Part shown: positions 7,382 to 13,762 of the stretch, in pieces
Layout of the letters: each line of letters opens with the position of its first letter
Position numbering within the stretch: position 1 is the first letter of the stretch
Source of the DNA: Deltaproteobacteria bacterium
GTDB taxonomy: Bacteria; Myxococcota_A; Polyangia; Polyangiales; JADJMO01
DNA length: 58,414 nucleotides
Assembly (NCBI GenBank): GCA_022843175.1
Contig: JALHOE010000030.1
Span: 1 to 58,414, forward strand
Reading direction: 5' to 3'
The notes under the pieces: model-generated
What the model saw: the letters and a program-made list of their open reading frames with translations, nothing else
The model's database searches: none
Told to the model about the DNA's origin: nothing
Position numbers and translations under genes: made by a program

Positions 7382-8017
7382 GTGATCAAGGTCCGATACC
7401 CCCTCGAGCGCGGCGGTCCGCCTCGGCTCGAGGTGTCGTGGTCGGACGGCTATCGACGGGTGAAGATCCGCCTCGACGACGTGGTGGTGGCGCGCAGCGA
7501 CGTCGTCGCGCTGCGCCGCGGCCGGACGTTCGAGCTCCCCGACGGTCGCCCGCTCGCGGTGGCGATGCAGCGCGGGATCGCGATGTGGGTCGACGGCGTG
7601 CCGGTGCCCGAGACCTACGCGGATCCGTGGATTCGGGTGAAGAGCGCGCCGATCTGGGTGCTCTCGATCGGCGCGGCGGCCGTGTGGCGGGCGCTCTACC
7701 TCGCGCCCGAGCGCCCGTGGCCCGCGGGCACCTGGGCGAACCTCGCGCTCGCGGTGTCCCTTTGCGCGAGCGCCGTCGCGATGCGCCGCGGCTCGTACGC
7801 CGCGCACGTGCTCGCGCTGATCGTCACGCTGTTCTGGTTGCTACAGGCGTTCCCGATGGTCCACCTGGAGCTCGACGCAGAGGGCCGCACCACGCTCGAC
7901 GCCGCGACGATCGTCGTCCGCGTGCTGAGCGCGGTCGCCTACCTCGCGATCGGCGTGTGGGTGCTCCGCAAGATCGCCCGGGGCGCCCACGCCGCCCGCG
8001 ATCTTCACCGGCAATAG
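7382..8017 (+). CDS. hypothetical membrane protein
   Basis: The 211-aa product uses GTG at 7382, the first start downstream of the divergent flavoprotein gene. The first ~90 residues are soluble and resemble a small beta-rich domain (KVRYPLERGG, RVKIRLDDVVVA). The C-terminal half holds about four hydrophobic segments (near SAPIWVLSIGAAAVW, LALAVSLCASAVAM, VLALIVTLFWLLQAF and LSAVAYLAIGVWVL). No family was recognised. The TAG stop overlaps the first two bases of a 24-nt palindrome. Confidence 0.6.
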   Translation: MIKVRYPLERGGPPRLEVSWSDGYRRVKIRLDDVVVARSDVVALRRGRTFELPDGRPLAVAMQRGIAMWVDGVPVPETYADPWIRVKSAPIWVLSIGAAAVWRALYLAPERPWPAGTWANLALAVSLCASAVAMRRGSYAAHVLALIVTLFWLLQAFPMVHLELDAEGRTTLDAATIVVRVLSAVAYLAIGVWVLRKIARGAHAARDLHRQ

Positions 8018-8039
8018 GCGCGCGCGTCAGCGAGCGCCT
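8016..8039 (+). repeat. GTCA-centred palindrome, copy 1
   Basis: Arms AGGCGCGCGC and GCGAGCGCCT flank GTCA, giving a 10-bp stem with one mismatch. The AG at its left end is part of the TAG stop of the upstream gene. The identical 24 nt recur at 12588, 13645 (reverse), 52878, 52924 and 52975 (reverse). It may act as the terminator between this gene and convergent purN. Confidence 0.9.
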
Positions 8040-9785: not shown

Positions 9786-12233
9786 TCACAGGGGGCGGAT
9801 ATCCCAGCGAATCCGCCGCGCCGATGGGCCCTTCACCGAGAGCCGGTAGTCGCGGTAGGTGACGTCGACCGTGCTGCTGACGCGGAGGCGTCCCGGCGTC
9901 TCGAGCCAGCAGCCGTCGCACGTCGAGAGGAGCGCTTCGTCGGCGGCGGCGGTGAGCATCGCGGGGTTGCCGGCGTCGTCGCTCACGCGCTCGGCGACCA
10001 GCGAGGTGCCGTCGACCAGCGTGAGCTGCGCCTTGTCGCCCTTCGCCAGCGCGACGAGCACGTCGAGGCGATCGCTGACCTTGTCGAGCGTGACCACCGA
10101 CGGCTCGGTCGCCGGCGCGAGGGTGTCGATCGTCGGATCGAGCAGGGGGAGCAGCTCGCCCTCGACGAGGAGGAGCGGGAGCTTGTCGAGCGGCGCCGGG
10201 ATCACCACGTCACCCGCTGCGTAGATCTTGTTGTCCGCGAGATCGACGTACTTCTTGCCGGGCGGGAGCCAGGTCTTCTTCTCGCGCACGCCGCGGCGCA
10301 CGACCGGTGACGCGTAGAGCGCGGGCCCGAGGAAGAACGAGTCCTCGATCGTCCACGCGGCGGGCTCGCGCGGGTGCAGGAGGAACGGGTGCCGCATCAG
10401 CGGGATGCCGCGGGTGCTCGCCTCGCGCGCCAGCGTGAGGAAGTAGGGCTGCAGTCGCGTGTGCAGGCGCGACATGTCGGCGTAGAGCTTGGTGCTCTCG
10501 GCGTCGCTCCACAGGTGCCACTTCGGCAGCTTGCCCGAGAGCGTGTAGCACTGGTTCTGGTCCATCATGATCGGCGACACCGCGCCCATCTGGGACCAGC
10601 GGAAGAAGACCTCTTTGTCGCGCGGCGCCGTGTCGAAGCACTTGAACCCGGAGATGTCGCTGCCCCAGTACGGCACGCCGACCATCGCGAGGTTGAGGCC
10701 GCCGCGGAGCGAGGCGGGGAGCCCCTGCGTCTCGTCGAACGTCGCCTCGGGATCGCCGCCCCACACCGCCGGCGTGAAGGCCTGCGTGCCGGTGTAGCCG
10801 CTGCGGTTGAAGTAGAGGTAGTCGCCGGGGCGCTGCTTCTGCCAGAAGTCGTGCGCGGCCTTCGCCGACAGCACCGGGTAGAGGTTGTGCAGCTCCTCGC
10901 CGTTCATGCCGTTGCCCGCCGTCCACTTGCGGCCGACGTACTCGCCGAAGTCGTGCATCCAGCCGTCGTAGCCGAGGTCGACGGAGCGCTTGAGGAGCGT
11001 GTGGAACCAGTCCACCGCGGCGGGCTTGGTGAGATCGATGGTGGCGACGTCGAGCAGCTGGCCGGAGATGAACGAGGTGATGCCGGGCGCGCCCTTCTCG
11101 TCGAGCAGGAAGTAGCCCTTCGCCTTGCCCTCGTCGTAGTCGAGCGAGGGCACCGGCTTGTTCTTCCCGACGTACGGGTTGTAGTAGCAGAGCGCCTTGT
11201 AGCCGTTGGCGTGGATGGTCTCGGTCCACGACTTGAGCTCGGCCTCGATGCCGACCTCGGAGCGCGCCGGTAAGAAGTGCACCGCGTCGTCGAGCCCCGT
11301 GGTCGGGATCTTGTTGTCGCGGATGGCCTTCCACTCCGGCACGCCGGAGACCATGGAGCCGCGGCCGACGCGGCGGCGTGGCCCGAACACCCACTGTGGC
11401 GGCGCGATCGGACGACCGGTCGCCCGGGTGTACGCGTCGAGCACCGCGAGCGGATCGGGTTGCGTGTAGACGACCAGCTCGAGGGCCTTGGCGCTGACCG
11501 CGATGCGCATCGCGTCGGGCTGCTCGCTGCCGAGGTGCGTCTCGCTCCGGTAGGTGGTGTTGACGTGGAGGCCGTACCCCTTGCTCGAGAGGAAGAACGG
11601 CACCGGGAAGTAGGTCATCGACGGGCCGTTGGGCGTCGGGTTCTTGTCGTTGCGGGGCGTGCTCTCGCCGTTGCCGAGCCCGGCCTCCTCGGCCCACGAG
11701 TAGAGCGACAGCCCGCGGTGATCGACCGACGCGTAGCGCTCGCCGAGCCCGAACACGTGCTCGTCGGCGGGGAACGCGAACGACATCGCGGTCTTGTTCC
11801 ACGCGCGCTTGTCGTCGTTGTTGGATTTGCCGGTTGCCGTGCTGCGCAGCCGCACCACCGCGCCCTCGATCGCGATCTCGAGGTCGACCGCGCCGCCGGG
11901 GACCTGGAAGCGGAGCTTCGCGCTCTTCGCTCCCTTCTCGAGGATCGCGCCGTCGTCCGAGCGCACCCACGGGTCGGCGACCTCCTCGTAGCCGTCCCAG
12001 CCGGGCAGGCCCTTCGCGCTGACATTGTACTCGTCGAACGTCGCCGAGGGGCCGCCGTCGCGCGAGGTGAGGACGGTGCGGGCGCCGTCGAGGATGGTGA
12101 GGCGGAAGGGGCGGGTCTCGACCTTCACCTTCACCGCGCCGTCGGCGAGCTCGAACGTCGGACCGGGCTCGCGGGCGTCGTCGTCGCCGGAGCAGGCTGC
12201 GAAGAGGAGGACAAGGGCGAAGAATTGGCGCAC
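9786..12233 (-). CDS. glycoside hydrolase family 31 lipoprotein
   Basis: The 815-aa product has a lipoprotein signal with lipobox FAAC. The GH31 barrel shows [14 protein letters not shown] with the presumed nucleophile Asp428, and [11 protein letters not shown] with the presumed acid/base Asp494, 66 residues later. The DGWMxDFGEY wording is like the YihQ sulfoquinovosidase branch rather than the WxDMNE of maltase-type enzymes, but the sulfonate-binding residues could not be confirmed by eye. Expected to remove alpha-linked sugars in the periplasm or at the outer membrane. The start is GTG at 12233; a hexanucleotide array begins 27 bp upstream in its presumed 5' region. Confidence 0.88.
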
Positions 12234-12260
12234 GGGGCGATGATAACCGCCGCCCGCGAC

Positions 12261-12574
12261 GACGCGTCGGCGTCTGCGTCTGCGCCCGCGTCCGCGCCTG
12301 CGTCTGCGCCTGCGTCTGCGCCCGCGCCCGCGTCCGCGCCTGCGTCTGCGTCCGCGCCCGCGTCTGCGCCTGCGTCCGCGTCCGCGTCTGCGTCTGCGTC
12401 TGCGCCTGCGTCCGCGCCCGCGTCCGCGTCCGCGTCCGCGTCCGTGTCTGCGTCTGCGTCTGCGCCTGCGCCTGCGTCTGCGTCTGCGTCTGCGTCCGCG
12501 TTGGCGTCTGCGTCCGCGTCTGCGTCCGCGTCCGCGTCCGCGTCTGCGTCCGTGTCGGCGTCCGTGTTGGCGTT
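12261..12574. repeat. degenerate hexanucleotide array (NNNGCG)n
   Basis: Roughly fifty hexamers of TCTGCG, TCCGCG, CCTGCG and CCCGCG follow one another with few interruptions. All reading frames stay open (Ser-Ala/Pro-Ala on plus, Thr-Arg/Gln on minus), but no gene is credible. The array fills most of the ~550-bp gap upstream of the GH31 gene and ends 13 bp before the palindrome at 12588. It could change length by slippage and affect GH31 expression; that is inference. Confidence 0.85.
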
Positions 12575-12587
12575 ATCGCGGCGTGAT

Positions 12588-12611
12588 AGGCGCGCGCGTC
12601 AGCGAGCGCCT
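12588..12611 (+). repeat. GTCA-centred palindrome, copy 2 (left flank of four-helix-bundle pair)
   Basis: Identical to the copy at 8016. Including flanks, 30 nt (from GAT before to GAC after) are identical to the inverted copy at 13645-13668 on the other side of the gene pair. Confidence 0.9.
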
Positions 12612-12783
12612 GACCCGATGGGGCTCTCTCCTTCGATTCTGCCGGCGTGCTCGGGTCGGTCGAGGGGTCGCGCCCTGCGGGCGCCTCGTCGCTGCGCTCC
12701 TCGCCCTTGACCGAAGCTCCGCGCGCCGGCGGGGGGCGGGGGCGTCCCGCCGAGAGTCGGCGTGGCTCACCGGGAGTTACCTC
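12612..12783 (+). other. G+C-rich leader of the plus-strand four-helix-bundle gene
   Basis: No gene was seen in this 172-nt stretch. It contains GC-rich self-complementary blocks (GCGCCCTGCGGGCGC and GGGGGCGTCCC) and shares short blocks in the same order with the leader at 13463-13644: GCGTGCTCGG, TCGAGG, CTGCGG, GCCTCG, CCTTGA, then a G-run and GAGAG or GCGAGAG. It is probably a structured leader that moves or evolves with the gene. Confidence 0.5.
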
Positions 12784-13101
12784 ATGTTGCGAATCTACGA
12801 CGACGTCCTCGAGATCATCCGCGCCGCTGCGCCCCTCGTTCACGAGCTCCGCAAGCGCAGTCCCAACCTCGCCGACCAAGCCGAGCGCGCACTGAGCTCG
12901 GTGCCGCTGCGGATCGCCGAGGGGAGCTACAGCCGCGGAAAGAACCGCGCCGCCCACTACCACGGTGGCGCGGGCTCGATGCAGGAGGCGATCGGCGCCT
13001 TCGACACCGGCGCGGCGTGGGGGTGGATCGCGCCGCTCGATCCGGCGCTGCGTGATCGCATGTCGCGCGCGCGGGCGGTGCTGTTCAAGAACGCGCGATG
13101 A
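12784..13101 (+). CDS. four-helix-bundle protein (S23/IVS-encoded, bAvd-like family), copy A
   Basis: The 105-aa product starts at MLRIYDDVLEIIR and has the hallmark RIAEGSYSRGKNRAAHY of the small four-helix-bundle family, which includes proteins encoded in 23S rRNA intervening sequences and the Avd accessory protein of diversity-generating retroelements. Paralogue B, on the opposite strand, shares MLRIYD, the ADQ-x-x-RAL block and the IAEGS-SRGKNR-AHY block. No 23S rRNA gene or reverse transcriptase is in the window, so the partner is unknown. The start was chosen because both copies begin MLRIYD. A palindrome and a structured leader lie upstream. Confidence 0.85.
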   Translation: MLRIYDDVLEIIRAAAPLVHELRKRSPNLADQAERALSSVPLRIAEGSYSRGKNRAAHYHGGAGSMQEAIGAFDTGAAWGWIAPLDPALRDRMSRARAVLFKNAR

Positions 13102-13107
13102 CAGGGG

Positions 13108-13138
13108 TGCGGGCCGGCGCTGGCAACGCCGGCCCGCA
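13108..13138. terminator. bidirectional terminator-like hairpin between the convergent pair
   Basis: TGCGGGCCGGCG (13108-13119) and CGCCGGCCCGCA (13127-13138) form a perfect 12-bp stem with a 7-nt loop. It lies exactly between the two convergent stop codons. There is no long T-run on either side, so termination efficiency is unproven. Confidence 0.65.
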
Positions 13139-13144
13139 GCTTCG

Positions 13145-13462
13145 CTAGCGCGACACCTTCACCAGCACGGCGACGACGTGCTTCATCTTGTCGCGGACGG
13201 CTTCGTCGACAGGAGGCATGCTGCCCTTGGCGACGCAGAGGTCGGTGATCGAGATGCTCTCGTCCATCGACGCGCAGCCACGGGAGTAATGGGCGGGGCG
13301 GTTCTTGCCCCGTGAGCGCGATCCCTCGGCGATCGCGAGCACCGTGGTAGTGAGCGCTCGATCCAGCTGATCGGCGTGGTGCGGTGACTTGTGCTGAAGC
13401 TCGGCGACATAGGGCCGCAGCGTGCGCACAATTTCTAGCGAGACATCGTAGATACGAAGCAT
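13145..13462 (-). CDS. four-helix-bundle protein (S23/IVS-encoded, bAvd-like family), copy B
   Basis: The 105-aa product runs from MLRIYDVSLEIVR to a VLVKVSR end. The core LAIAEGSRSRGKNRPAHY gives the family. It is the same length as copy A and aligns without obvious gaps, but is diverged over most positions, so the duplication is old or the two arrived separately. A possible ribosome-binding site, AAGGAG, lies 8 nt before the ATG. The gene is convergent with copy A and preceded by a related leader and an identical palindrome. Confidence 0.85.
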   Translation of the reverse strand: MLRIYDVSLEIVRTLRPYVAELQHKSPHHADQLDRALTTTVLAIAEGSRSRGKNRPAHYSRGCASMDESISITDLCVAKGSMPPVDEAVRDKMKHVVAVLVKVSR

Positions 13463-13644
13463 GGGAACGACTCCTTGTTCGCCCCCGAACGACCGCCGCT
13501 CGGGGCTCTCGCCCCACCCCCGCGCGCGCAGGCGGGATCAAGGCTGCCGAGCAATGCGAGGCACCGCCGCAGGCGGCTTGGCCTCGAGGCCGCCGAGCAC
13601 GCGGGTATGGTGGCGAGCCCGAGCGGGGGGACCATTCACACGTC
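13463..13644 (-). other. G+C-rich leader of the minus-strand four-helix-bundle gene
   Basis: No gene was seen. Read on the minus strand, this 182-nt stretch parallels the leader of copy A, with ordered shared blocks (GCGTGCTCGG, TCGAGG, CTGCGG, GCCTCG, CCTTGA). It contains GGGGCGAGAGCCCC, which can pair with itself. It ends with AAGGAG upstream of the ATG. Confidence 0.5.
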
Positions 13645-13668
13645 AGGCGCTCGCTGACGCGCGCGCCT
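13645..13668 (-). repeat. GTCA-centred palindrome, copy 3 (right flank of four-helix-bundle pair)
   Basis: Exact reverse copy of the 24 nt at 12588-12611. The stem has one mismatch that breaks perfect symmetry and so gives the element an orientation. Both flanking copies point toward their adjacent four-helix-bundle gene. Confidence 0.9.
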
Positions 13669-13677
13669 ATCCCGCCC

Positions 13678-13755
13678 GCGTTCGCGTTCGCGTTCGCGTT
13701 CGCGTTCGCGTTCGCGTTCGCGTTCGCGTTCGCGTTCGCGTTCGCGTTCGCGTTC
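13678..13755. repeat. pure hexanucleotide microsatellite (GCGTTC)n
   Basis: About thirteen uninterrupted copies of the GCGTTC/TTCGCG hexamer. The array starts about 10 bp beyond the right palindrome and ends 8 bp before the stop codon of the M23 peptidase gene, so it would be in that gene's 3' region. Its purity suggests recent expansion, unlike the degenerate left array. Confidence 0.9.
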
Positions 13756-13762
13756 TCCGCTT

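Follow-up and report, generated by a model that had tools for sequence, protein, structure and literature searches.

A tail-to-tail pair of four-helix-bundle genes as one copy of a probable, apparently undescribed mobile element in myxobacteria

Genes for four-helix-bundle proteins of the S23/IVP family are common in bacteria, and we know of no function for them. Two genes that appear to be of this kind face each other between inverted copies of a palindromic repeat on a 58-kb contig (C30; 58,414 nucleotides, referred to here as the window) of a GC-rich genome of 9.75 Mb in 470 contigs, which raises the question of what sort of unit they constitute and how it came to lie there. The explanation that we favor, and regard as reasonably probable when taken as a whole, is that the locus represents a copy of a small mobile element whose distribution spans several families within a single myxobacterial order. 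It is apparently an undescribed kind of myxobacterial jumping DNA, the only genes of which encode two helix-bundle proteins.

The gene pair and its proteins

The features of the locus, in the order of their coordinates, are as follows.

12257..12573, + strand: left hexanucleotide array, units GCGYYY (GCGTCT/GCGCCT/GCGTCC and others)
12588..12611, + strand: REP core AGGCGCGCGCGTCAGCGAGCGCCT, upstream of gene A; the extended repeat is 12580-12614
12612..12783, + strand: gene A leader, its 3' end being the Shine-Dalgarno-like GGGAG
12639..12732, + strand: conserved leader stem-loop, copy A (covariance model R1, 69 bits)
12784..13101, + strand: four-helix-bundle protein A, predicted S23/IVP-Avd fold, open frame of 105 aa
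13108..13138, no strand: hairpin between the two stop codons, 12-bp stem, z -3.6
13145..13462, - strand: predicted four-helix-bundle protein B, open frame of 105 aa
13463..13644, - strand: gene B leader, with Shine-Dalgarno AAGGAG
13516..13608, - strand: conserved leader stem-loop, copy B (covariance model R1, 65 bits; fold z -2.2)
13645..13668, - strand: REP core upstream of gene B; the extended repeat is 13642-13676
about 13676..13760, + strand: right hexanucleotide array (GCGTTC)n, in the same strand sense as the left array

The first-pass annotation had described two homologous 105-aa genes facing each other, with related leaders of 172-182 nt, the same outer sequence in opposite orientation, and a hairpin separating the stop codons. 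All of these were recovered on measurement: both frames are open and lie tail to tail, and their products are 53% identical; the REP-to-ATG distances are 172 and 182 nt; the outer inverted repeats (12580-12614 and 13642-13676) are 35 nt long and 97% complementary (34/35); and the hairpin at 13108-13138 indeed stands between the stops. The REP core at 12588-12611 itself folds as a hairpin with one internal mismatch (z -3.2). A scan of the whole 58-kb window found hexamer arrays only at the two borders of the gene pair, and the neighbors of the unit are ordinary protein-coding frames. No rRNA was found in the window by Rfam, and the pair is thus not an intervening sequence of 23S rRNA; the reverse transcriptase (RVT_1) matches of the genome lie on other contigs (C3, C56, C84). 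These results agree with the earlier claim that the genes stand apart from both 23S rRNA and a retroelement. The leader, when compared with Rfam, produced sub-threshold chance matches only, none of which was convincing.

The PF05635/TIGR02436 profiles matched both window proteins weakly, at 23.9 and 14.8 bits against a cut-off of 33.8, and paralogues on contigs C54 and C246 exceeded the Pfam cut-off; PF05635 matched 9 of 10 aligned members at E<=0.01. A profile search of the PDB retrieved the S23-family protein 2gsc (E 1e-4). Protein B was modeled by AlphaFold2 as four helices with a pLDDT of 94.7 when both window proteins were supplied in alignment, the single-sequence run having given 65, and Foldseek placed the predicted fold closest to 2rld/2gsc in the PDB (TM 0.80), with the Avd protein of diversity-generating retroelements (DGRs) at TM 0.70-0.75. 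Judged by this predicted fold, the window proteins appear to be S23-type four-helix bundles that belong with the S23/IVP family, though they score below the Pfam cut-off, which is consistent with the S23/IVS or bAvd-like family named in the first reading.

Among paralogues within a genome, dN/dS was 0.02-0.20 (0.02-0.14 for gene A against its paralogues), which denotes purifying selection; thus, the proteins have been kept functional while the copies spread. PADLOC returned no match for the proteins, and no homologue of protein B was found in a phage collection, so that neither a defence role nor a phage origin is indicated. A toxin-antitoxin pair was also considered, and was dropped because the two genes are homologous and convergent, and do not form a single operon.

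Dispersed units, their REP and their leader

The source genome contains at least 14 genes or gene remnants of the window subfamily. In every one of the 12 copies that have upstream DNA on the contig, a REP core precedes the gene and shares its orientation, so that the gene-leader-palindrome unit recurs at different loci in every assessable copy, as had been proposed for a check. The distance from REP to ATG is mostly 172-199 nt; two copies, in which the leader stem-loop has been lost, have shorter distances of 96 and 102 nt. From the REP through the leader and gene to the 3' hairpin, the loci, including that of gene A, align at 82-91%, after which arrays or unrelated DNA follow; arrays of the class at 12257-12573 also adjoin most of the other copies. 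At other places in the genome there are solitary units that share this REP, leader and 3' hairpin, the REP being on one side only. The mirror-image unit that had been perceived at first is therefore real as a symmetry, but it is made of two separate units of REP, leader and gene, and is symmetrical because these sit tail to tail. A second REP-bounded pair in the same arrangement is present on C54, and frameshifted or truncated copies are found on C151, C28, C35 and C69; single-gene derivatives and decayed copies coexist with the paired elements.

Two units (L010, L012) have lost the central leader stem-loop, and their genes are disrupted as well. Two more distant helix-bundle genes of the same genome (L053, L059) are without REP and also lie beside hexamer arrays, the units of which differ from those above (CGANNC, NTCGGC).

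The palindrome itself fits the description of a REP/REPIN. Its core, at 24 nt, falls within the 20-40 nt of such palindromes and has 668 copies in the genome, where more than 100 are called for, against one match for the reversed control pattern; it forms inverted pairs elsewhere in the genome, as REPINs do; and it is species-specific, the three matches in the congener G001 being at the level of noise. Of the GTAG or CGTC tags that may stand at one end of a REP palindrome, the copies that were read have no constant GTAG head, and the CGTC is located inside the hairpin, not at its end. In the window, a cluster of REPs (+,+,-) occupies an intergenic stretch at 52878-52998 and a single copy lies at 8016-8039, both without helix-bundle genes. 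Within the leaders of other genomes, no repeat that is dispersed in the sampled background was found; it is in the source genome only that a REP is fixed upstream of every readable unit. As all 668 REPs are peculiar to the source genome, the REP is an addition and not the moving ends of the family. The proposal of a REP-associated element thus holds for the 12 of 12 units of this genome, but not as a general property of the ends, the REP being genome-specific and about 98% of its copies not being adjacent to a helix-bundle gene.

It may nonetheless be asked whether the element is REPIN-like cargo of a RAYT, the Y1 HUH transposase that acts on REPs. RAYT genes are reported to be always flanked by two inverted REPs (PMC2817692), and inverted REPs likewise bound the present gene pair; RAYT-REP units and REPINs also resemble it in having a species-specific REP in hundreds of copies, with inverted pairs, as well as a gene unit between inverted REPs (PMC2817692, PMC3116915, PMC3733652). 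The source genome moreover contains four Y1_Tnp matches, at least three of which are RAYT-like in sequence. However, none of the four lies between paired REPs (near one of them there is a lone REP, at a distance of about 420 nt), the genes that are bounded by REPs encode helix-bundle proteins and not a Y1 transposase, and the REP stands on one side only in single units. In other genomes, G001 included, the element occurs without this REP, and the leaders there offer no repeat dispersed in the sampled background in its place. Y1_Tnp is also absent from the element-rich relatives G008, G015 and G030. The locus was hence rejected as a RAYT-REP unit, and movement of the element by a RAYT is considered improbable. 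As to the REP itself, it may have been spread either by the helix-bundle proteins or by a RAYT; its recognition by the same helix-bundle protein is conceivable, and we would place it on the unlikely side.

For the leader, 21 sequences from five genomes were aligned. The alignment supports a stem of 23 pairs, with 91% of the cells paired and 15 pairs showing changes on both sides. The covariation score was 0.47, whereas shuffled alignments gave 0.13 and none of 500 reached the observed value, and controls with slid partners were 33-46% paired, although this last comparison is inflated because the structure was drawn from those same sequences. In genomes outside the training set, covariance model R1 located the stem-loop about 35-55 nt upstream of helix-bundle genes; all seven matches in G011 were at these genes, and matches were also obtained in G044, G038, G030 and G015. 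All 11 matches in the source genome were units of the window family. Elements of the G008 type gave no match to R1 and use different hairpins. On this comparative sequence evidence, the leader is a conserved structure tied to the genes.

Relatives, insertion sites and arrays

Of 57 relatives, 28 carry these genes, with 0 to 31 copies among the relatives and 0 to 16 within one genus. Order-level relatives show the same architecture with different sequences, and convergent pairs, more than 20 in total, are found in G000, G001, G008, G026, G031, G045, G049 and G053. In the pairs of G008, the stops overlap and a long hairpin precedes each start. In the gene tree, many forks of which are not resolved, genes A and B of the genus of G008 form two clades, each with several species, and the pair therefore predates that genus; in the lineages of G053 and the source genome, the two genes group more closely with one another, so that pairs have either arisen repeatedly or exchange sequence. 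A scan of named genomes returned one distant partial locus only, in a Myxococcales MAG.

Three G008 elements were compared with congeners. One congener, G016, has no helix-bundle gene of this kind, and its flanks are contiguous at two of the element sites: in 138 kb of collinear sequence (12 aligned blocks, 89% identity), the G008 elements at C6:465.4k and C6:495.5k appear as gaps of 1013 and 1159 bp versus 134 and 13 bp in G016. At the tested G008 sites, the inserted segment includes the arrays. The 134-bp site of G016 holds an array-and-tail scar that resembles the tail of an element, and may therefore represent loss and not gain. The empty site corresponding to L102 has a four-unit array of the same class in G016, much as a landing site would have. 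For the window subfamily, the congener G001 has no copy, at the syntenic site, of the unit that the source genome carries on C11. The gene to the left of the window unit (9786-12233) has an orthologue in G001 without an adjacent unit, and the window site alone decides nothing in that genome because the other flank is not syntenic there.

At the C11-equivalent site (L219; G001:C19, about 12570-12790) lies a different small insert with inverted TCTAGAGTC-like arrays and no helix-bundle gene, which is perhaps another array-ended element.

Insertion polymorphism at syntenic sites is thus indicated by both genome alignments, G016 being without two G008 elements of the same architecture and G001 without the C11 unit, which are the empty sites in relatives that had been suggested for examination. 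Considering that the G008 elements are unlike the source leader and show no R1 match, the mobility of the window subfamily rests on the dispersed copies and one absent site. Mobility, which the first-pass annotation had put forward as an inference, is now well supported by dispersed copies and insertion polymorphism together, and from these genome comparisons the unit is very probably a mobile element. Recurrent units and empty sites similarly favor the notion of an undescribed selfish or REP-associated element, and no description of such an element was found in the open-access literature, absence there being weak evidence.

The same observations bear on a non-selfish explanation, namely, that these are duplicated ordinary host genes, RNA-binding regulators of no known role. 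Strong purifying selection would suit such genes, and the conserved leader could be an autoregulatory site. Host genes would, however, poorly account for clean insertions and absent sites between congeners, for the spread in copy number within a single genus, for copies decayed by truncation or frameshift, and for constant element ends at unrelated loci, and we give this explanation little credence.

Hexamer arrays are present on 87 of 129 scorable flanks of helix-bundle genes, i.e., about two thirds (a few loci being entered twice in this count), against an expectation of roughly 1-3% per flank; the background is 14 arrays per 800 kb for the source genome, and for the others it is 2-7 arrays in stretches of 130-240 kb. 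The array unit varies by genome and gene subfamily, with GCGYYY and GCCTGC types in the source genome and CTGNCN in G008. The two arrays run in the same direction on either side of a pair but in opposite directions around several single units, a difference that is not accounted for by any one simple model of recombination. The first reading had placed the arrays just outside the window unit; they are indeed the only two of the window, but where this could be tested, arrays are part of the inserted segment. They are thus taken to belong to the element, although they also occur away from helix-bundle genes and may therefore instead be an independent repeat that the element prefers.

Alternatively, it could be the arrays that primarily move or expand, the genes being mere passengers captured between them. 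Most elements are array-bounded, and solo arrays without genes exist in the comparison of G008 with the gene-free G016, one of them polymorphic and another shared. Against this, the array sequence changes with genome and subfamily whereas the gene-leader core is conserved, and arrays are rarer in G016 than in G008 (3 versus 10 per about 140 kb). The passenger role of the genes is therefore rated as a poor prospect, and a mobile element with its own gene-leader core continues to be preferred.

Known systems and a possible mechanism

The 23S rRNA intervening sequences (PF05635, TIGR02436; PMC4990558), which are insertions within a 23S rRNA gene that RNase III excises, share the fold and family, and they too consist of a small ORF within a structured element that has been called selfish and is sporadic in distribution (PMC4990558). 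The Coxiella intervening sequence has variable tandem heptamers preceding its S23 ORF (PMC4990558), a possible parallel to the arrays described here. In contrast, the present element is intergenic, outside rRNA and multi-copy; it has two diverged facing genes, its own stem-loop leader with a Shine-Dalgarno sequence, and arrays at both ends; and its genes evolve under purifying selection, unlike the ORF of Coxiella, which is in decay and probably untranslated (PMC4990558). Like MITEs and insertion sequences, the element is present as many small insertions, each of about 1 kb, between genes. It differs from them in having no recognizable transposase, no family-wide terminal inverted repeat and no clear target-site duplication, and in having tandem arrays of short units as its ends.

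The DGR Avd protein (4dwl, 8ub7) has a four-helix-bundle fold like that predicted here, is an accessory subunit of the DGR ribonucleoprotein (structure 8ub7, to which the fold was matched), and likewise has an RNA-like structured element beside its gene. However, no DGR reverse transcriptase is present at the copies examined, the RVT_1 matches of the source genome being on other contigs, and some element-bearing genomes have none. In a DGR, Avd is accompanied by a reverse transcriptase with template and variable repeats, and on the reverse transcriptase results the locus was rejected as a DGR. A reverse transcriptase might still act in trans and copy leader RNA plus gene in a DGR-like or SINE-like manner, with the arrays being generated by priming slippage. 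Such an origin would be in keeping with the resemblance to Avd, which serves the DGR reverse transcriptase as an accessory protein, and with the position of the stem-loop within the predicted mRNA leader, and some retroelements are known to have short tandem tails. The arrays here, however, are at both ends, the element-carrying genomes G026 and G031 have no RVT_1 match, and the reverse transcriptase matches in other genomes are few and not adjacent to elements, so that we find this origin hard to credit. RAYT and reverse transcriptase companions not being universal, no single known enzyme appears to fit as the mover.

The core of the proposed mobile element is, then, a pair of diverged genes of predicted S23/Avd fold, tail to tail, with stem-loop leaders, short 3' hairpins, and arrays of about 6-nt units at the ends. 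In the DGR ribonucleoprotein, Avd contacts RNA. By analogy, proteins A and B would assemble into a ring like that of Avd, probably containing both, and this ring would bind the stem-loop of its own leader, in the form of either mRNA or extruded single-stranded DNA, thereby marking the element for copying; that the protein acts on its own stem-loop is, in our judgment, somewhat favored. An S23 protein of Xanthomonas crystallizes as a pentamer of four-helix bundles (PMC4990558). The arrays would provide portable homology at the ends of the element, by which host recombination or replication could insert it at intergenic sites where short arrays match its own, or take it out again; the direct arrays around pairs could permit the same recombination to excise the element, leaving a solo array. 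Such array-assisted insertion by host enzymes is advanced tentatively. Still more speculative is the possibility of a transposase-free class, in which paired S23/Avd proteins bind the stem-loop of their own leader and host enzymes copy the element between arrays that it also seeds, and in which, in the source genome, this apparatus took over or spawned a REP family of more than 600 copies in place of a RAYT.

If the mobile-element explanation is correct, the S23/IVP genes would here make up all of the coding sequence of an element inserted in multiple copies, and their function could be tested by asking whether they bind a defined stem-loop and whether the element moves from array to array. 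A further suggestion is that such elements may have given rise both to the S23 genes found within intervening sequences of rRNA and to Avd as a subunit of DGRs, and the explanation would add a route of DNA spreading without a recognized transposase, recombinase or reverse transcriptase.

As a separate observation, a large palindrome (CGGACCGCGGCGCGGGATGGGC ... GCCCATCCCGCGCCGCGGTCCG) is seen at the right flanks of G008 loci L101 and L107; it is recurrent in both G008 and G016, and adjoins several elements.
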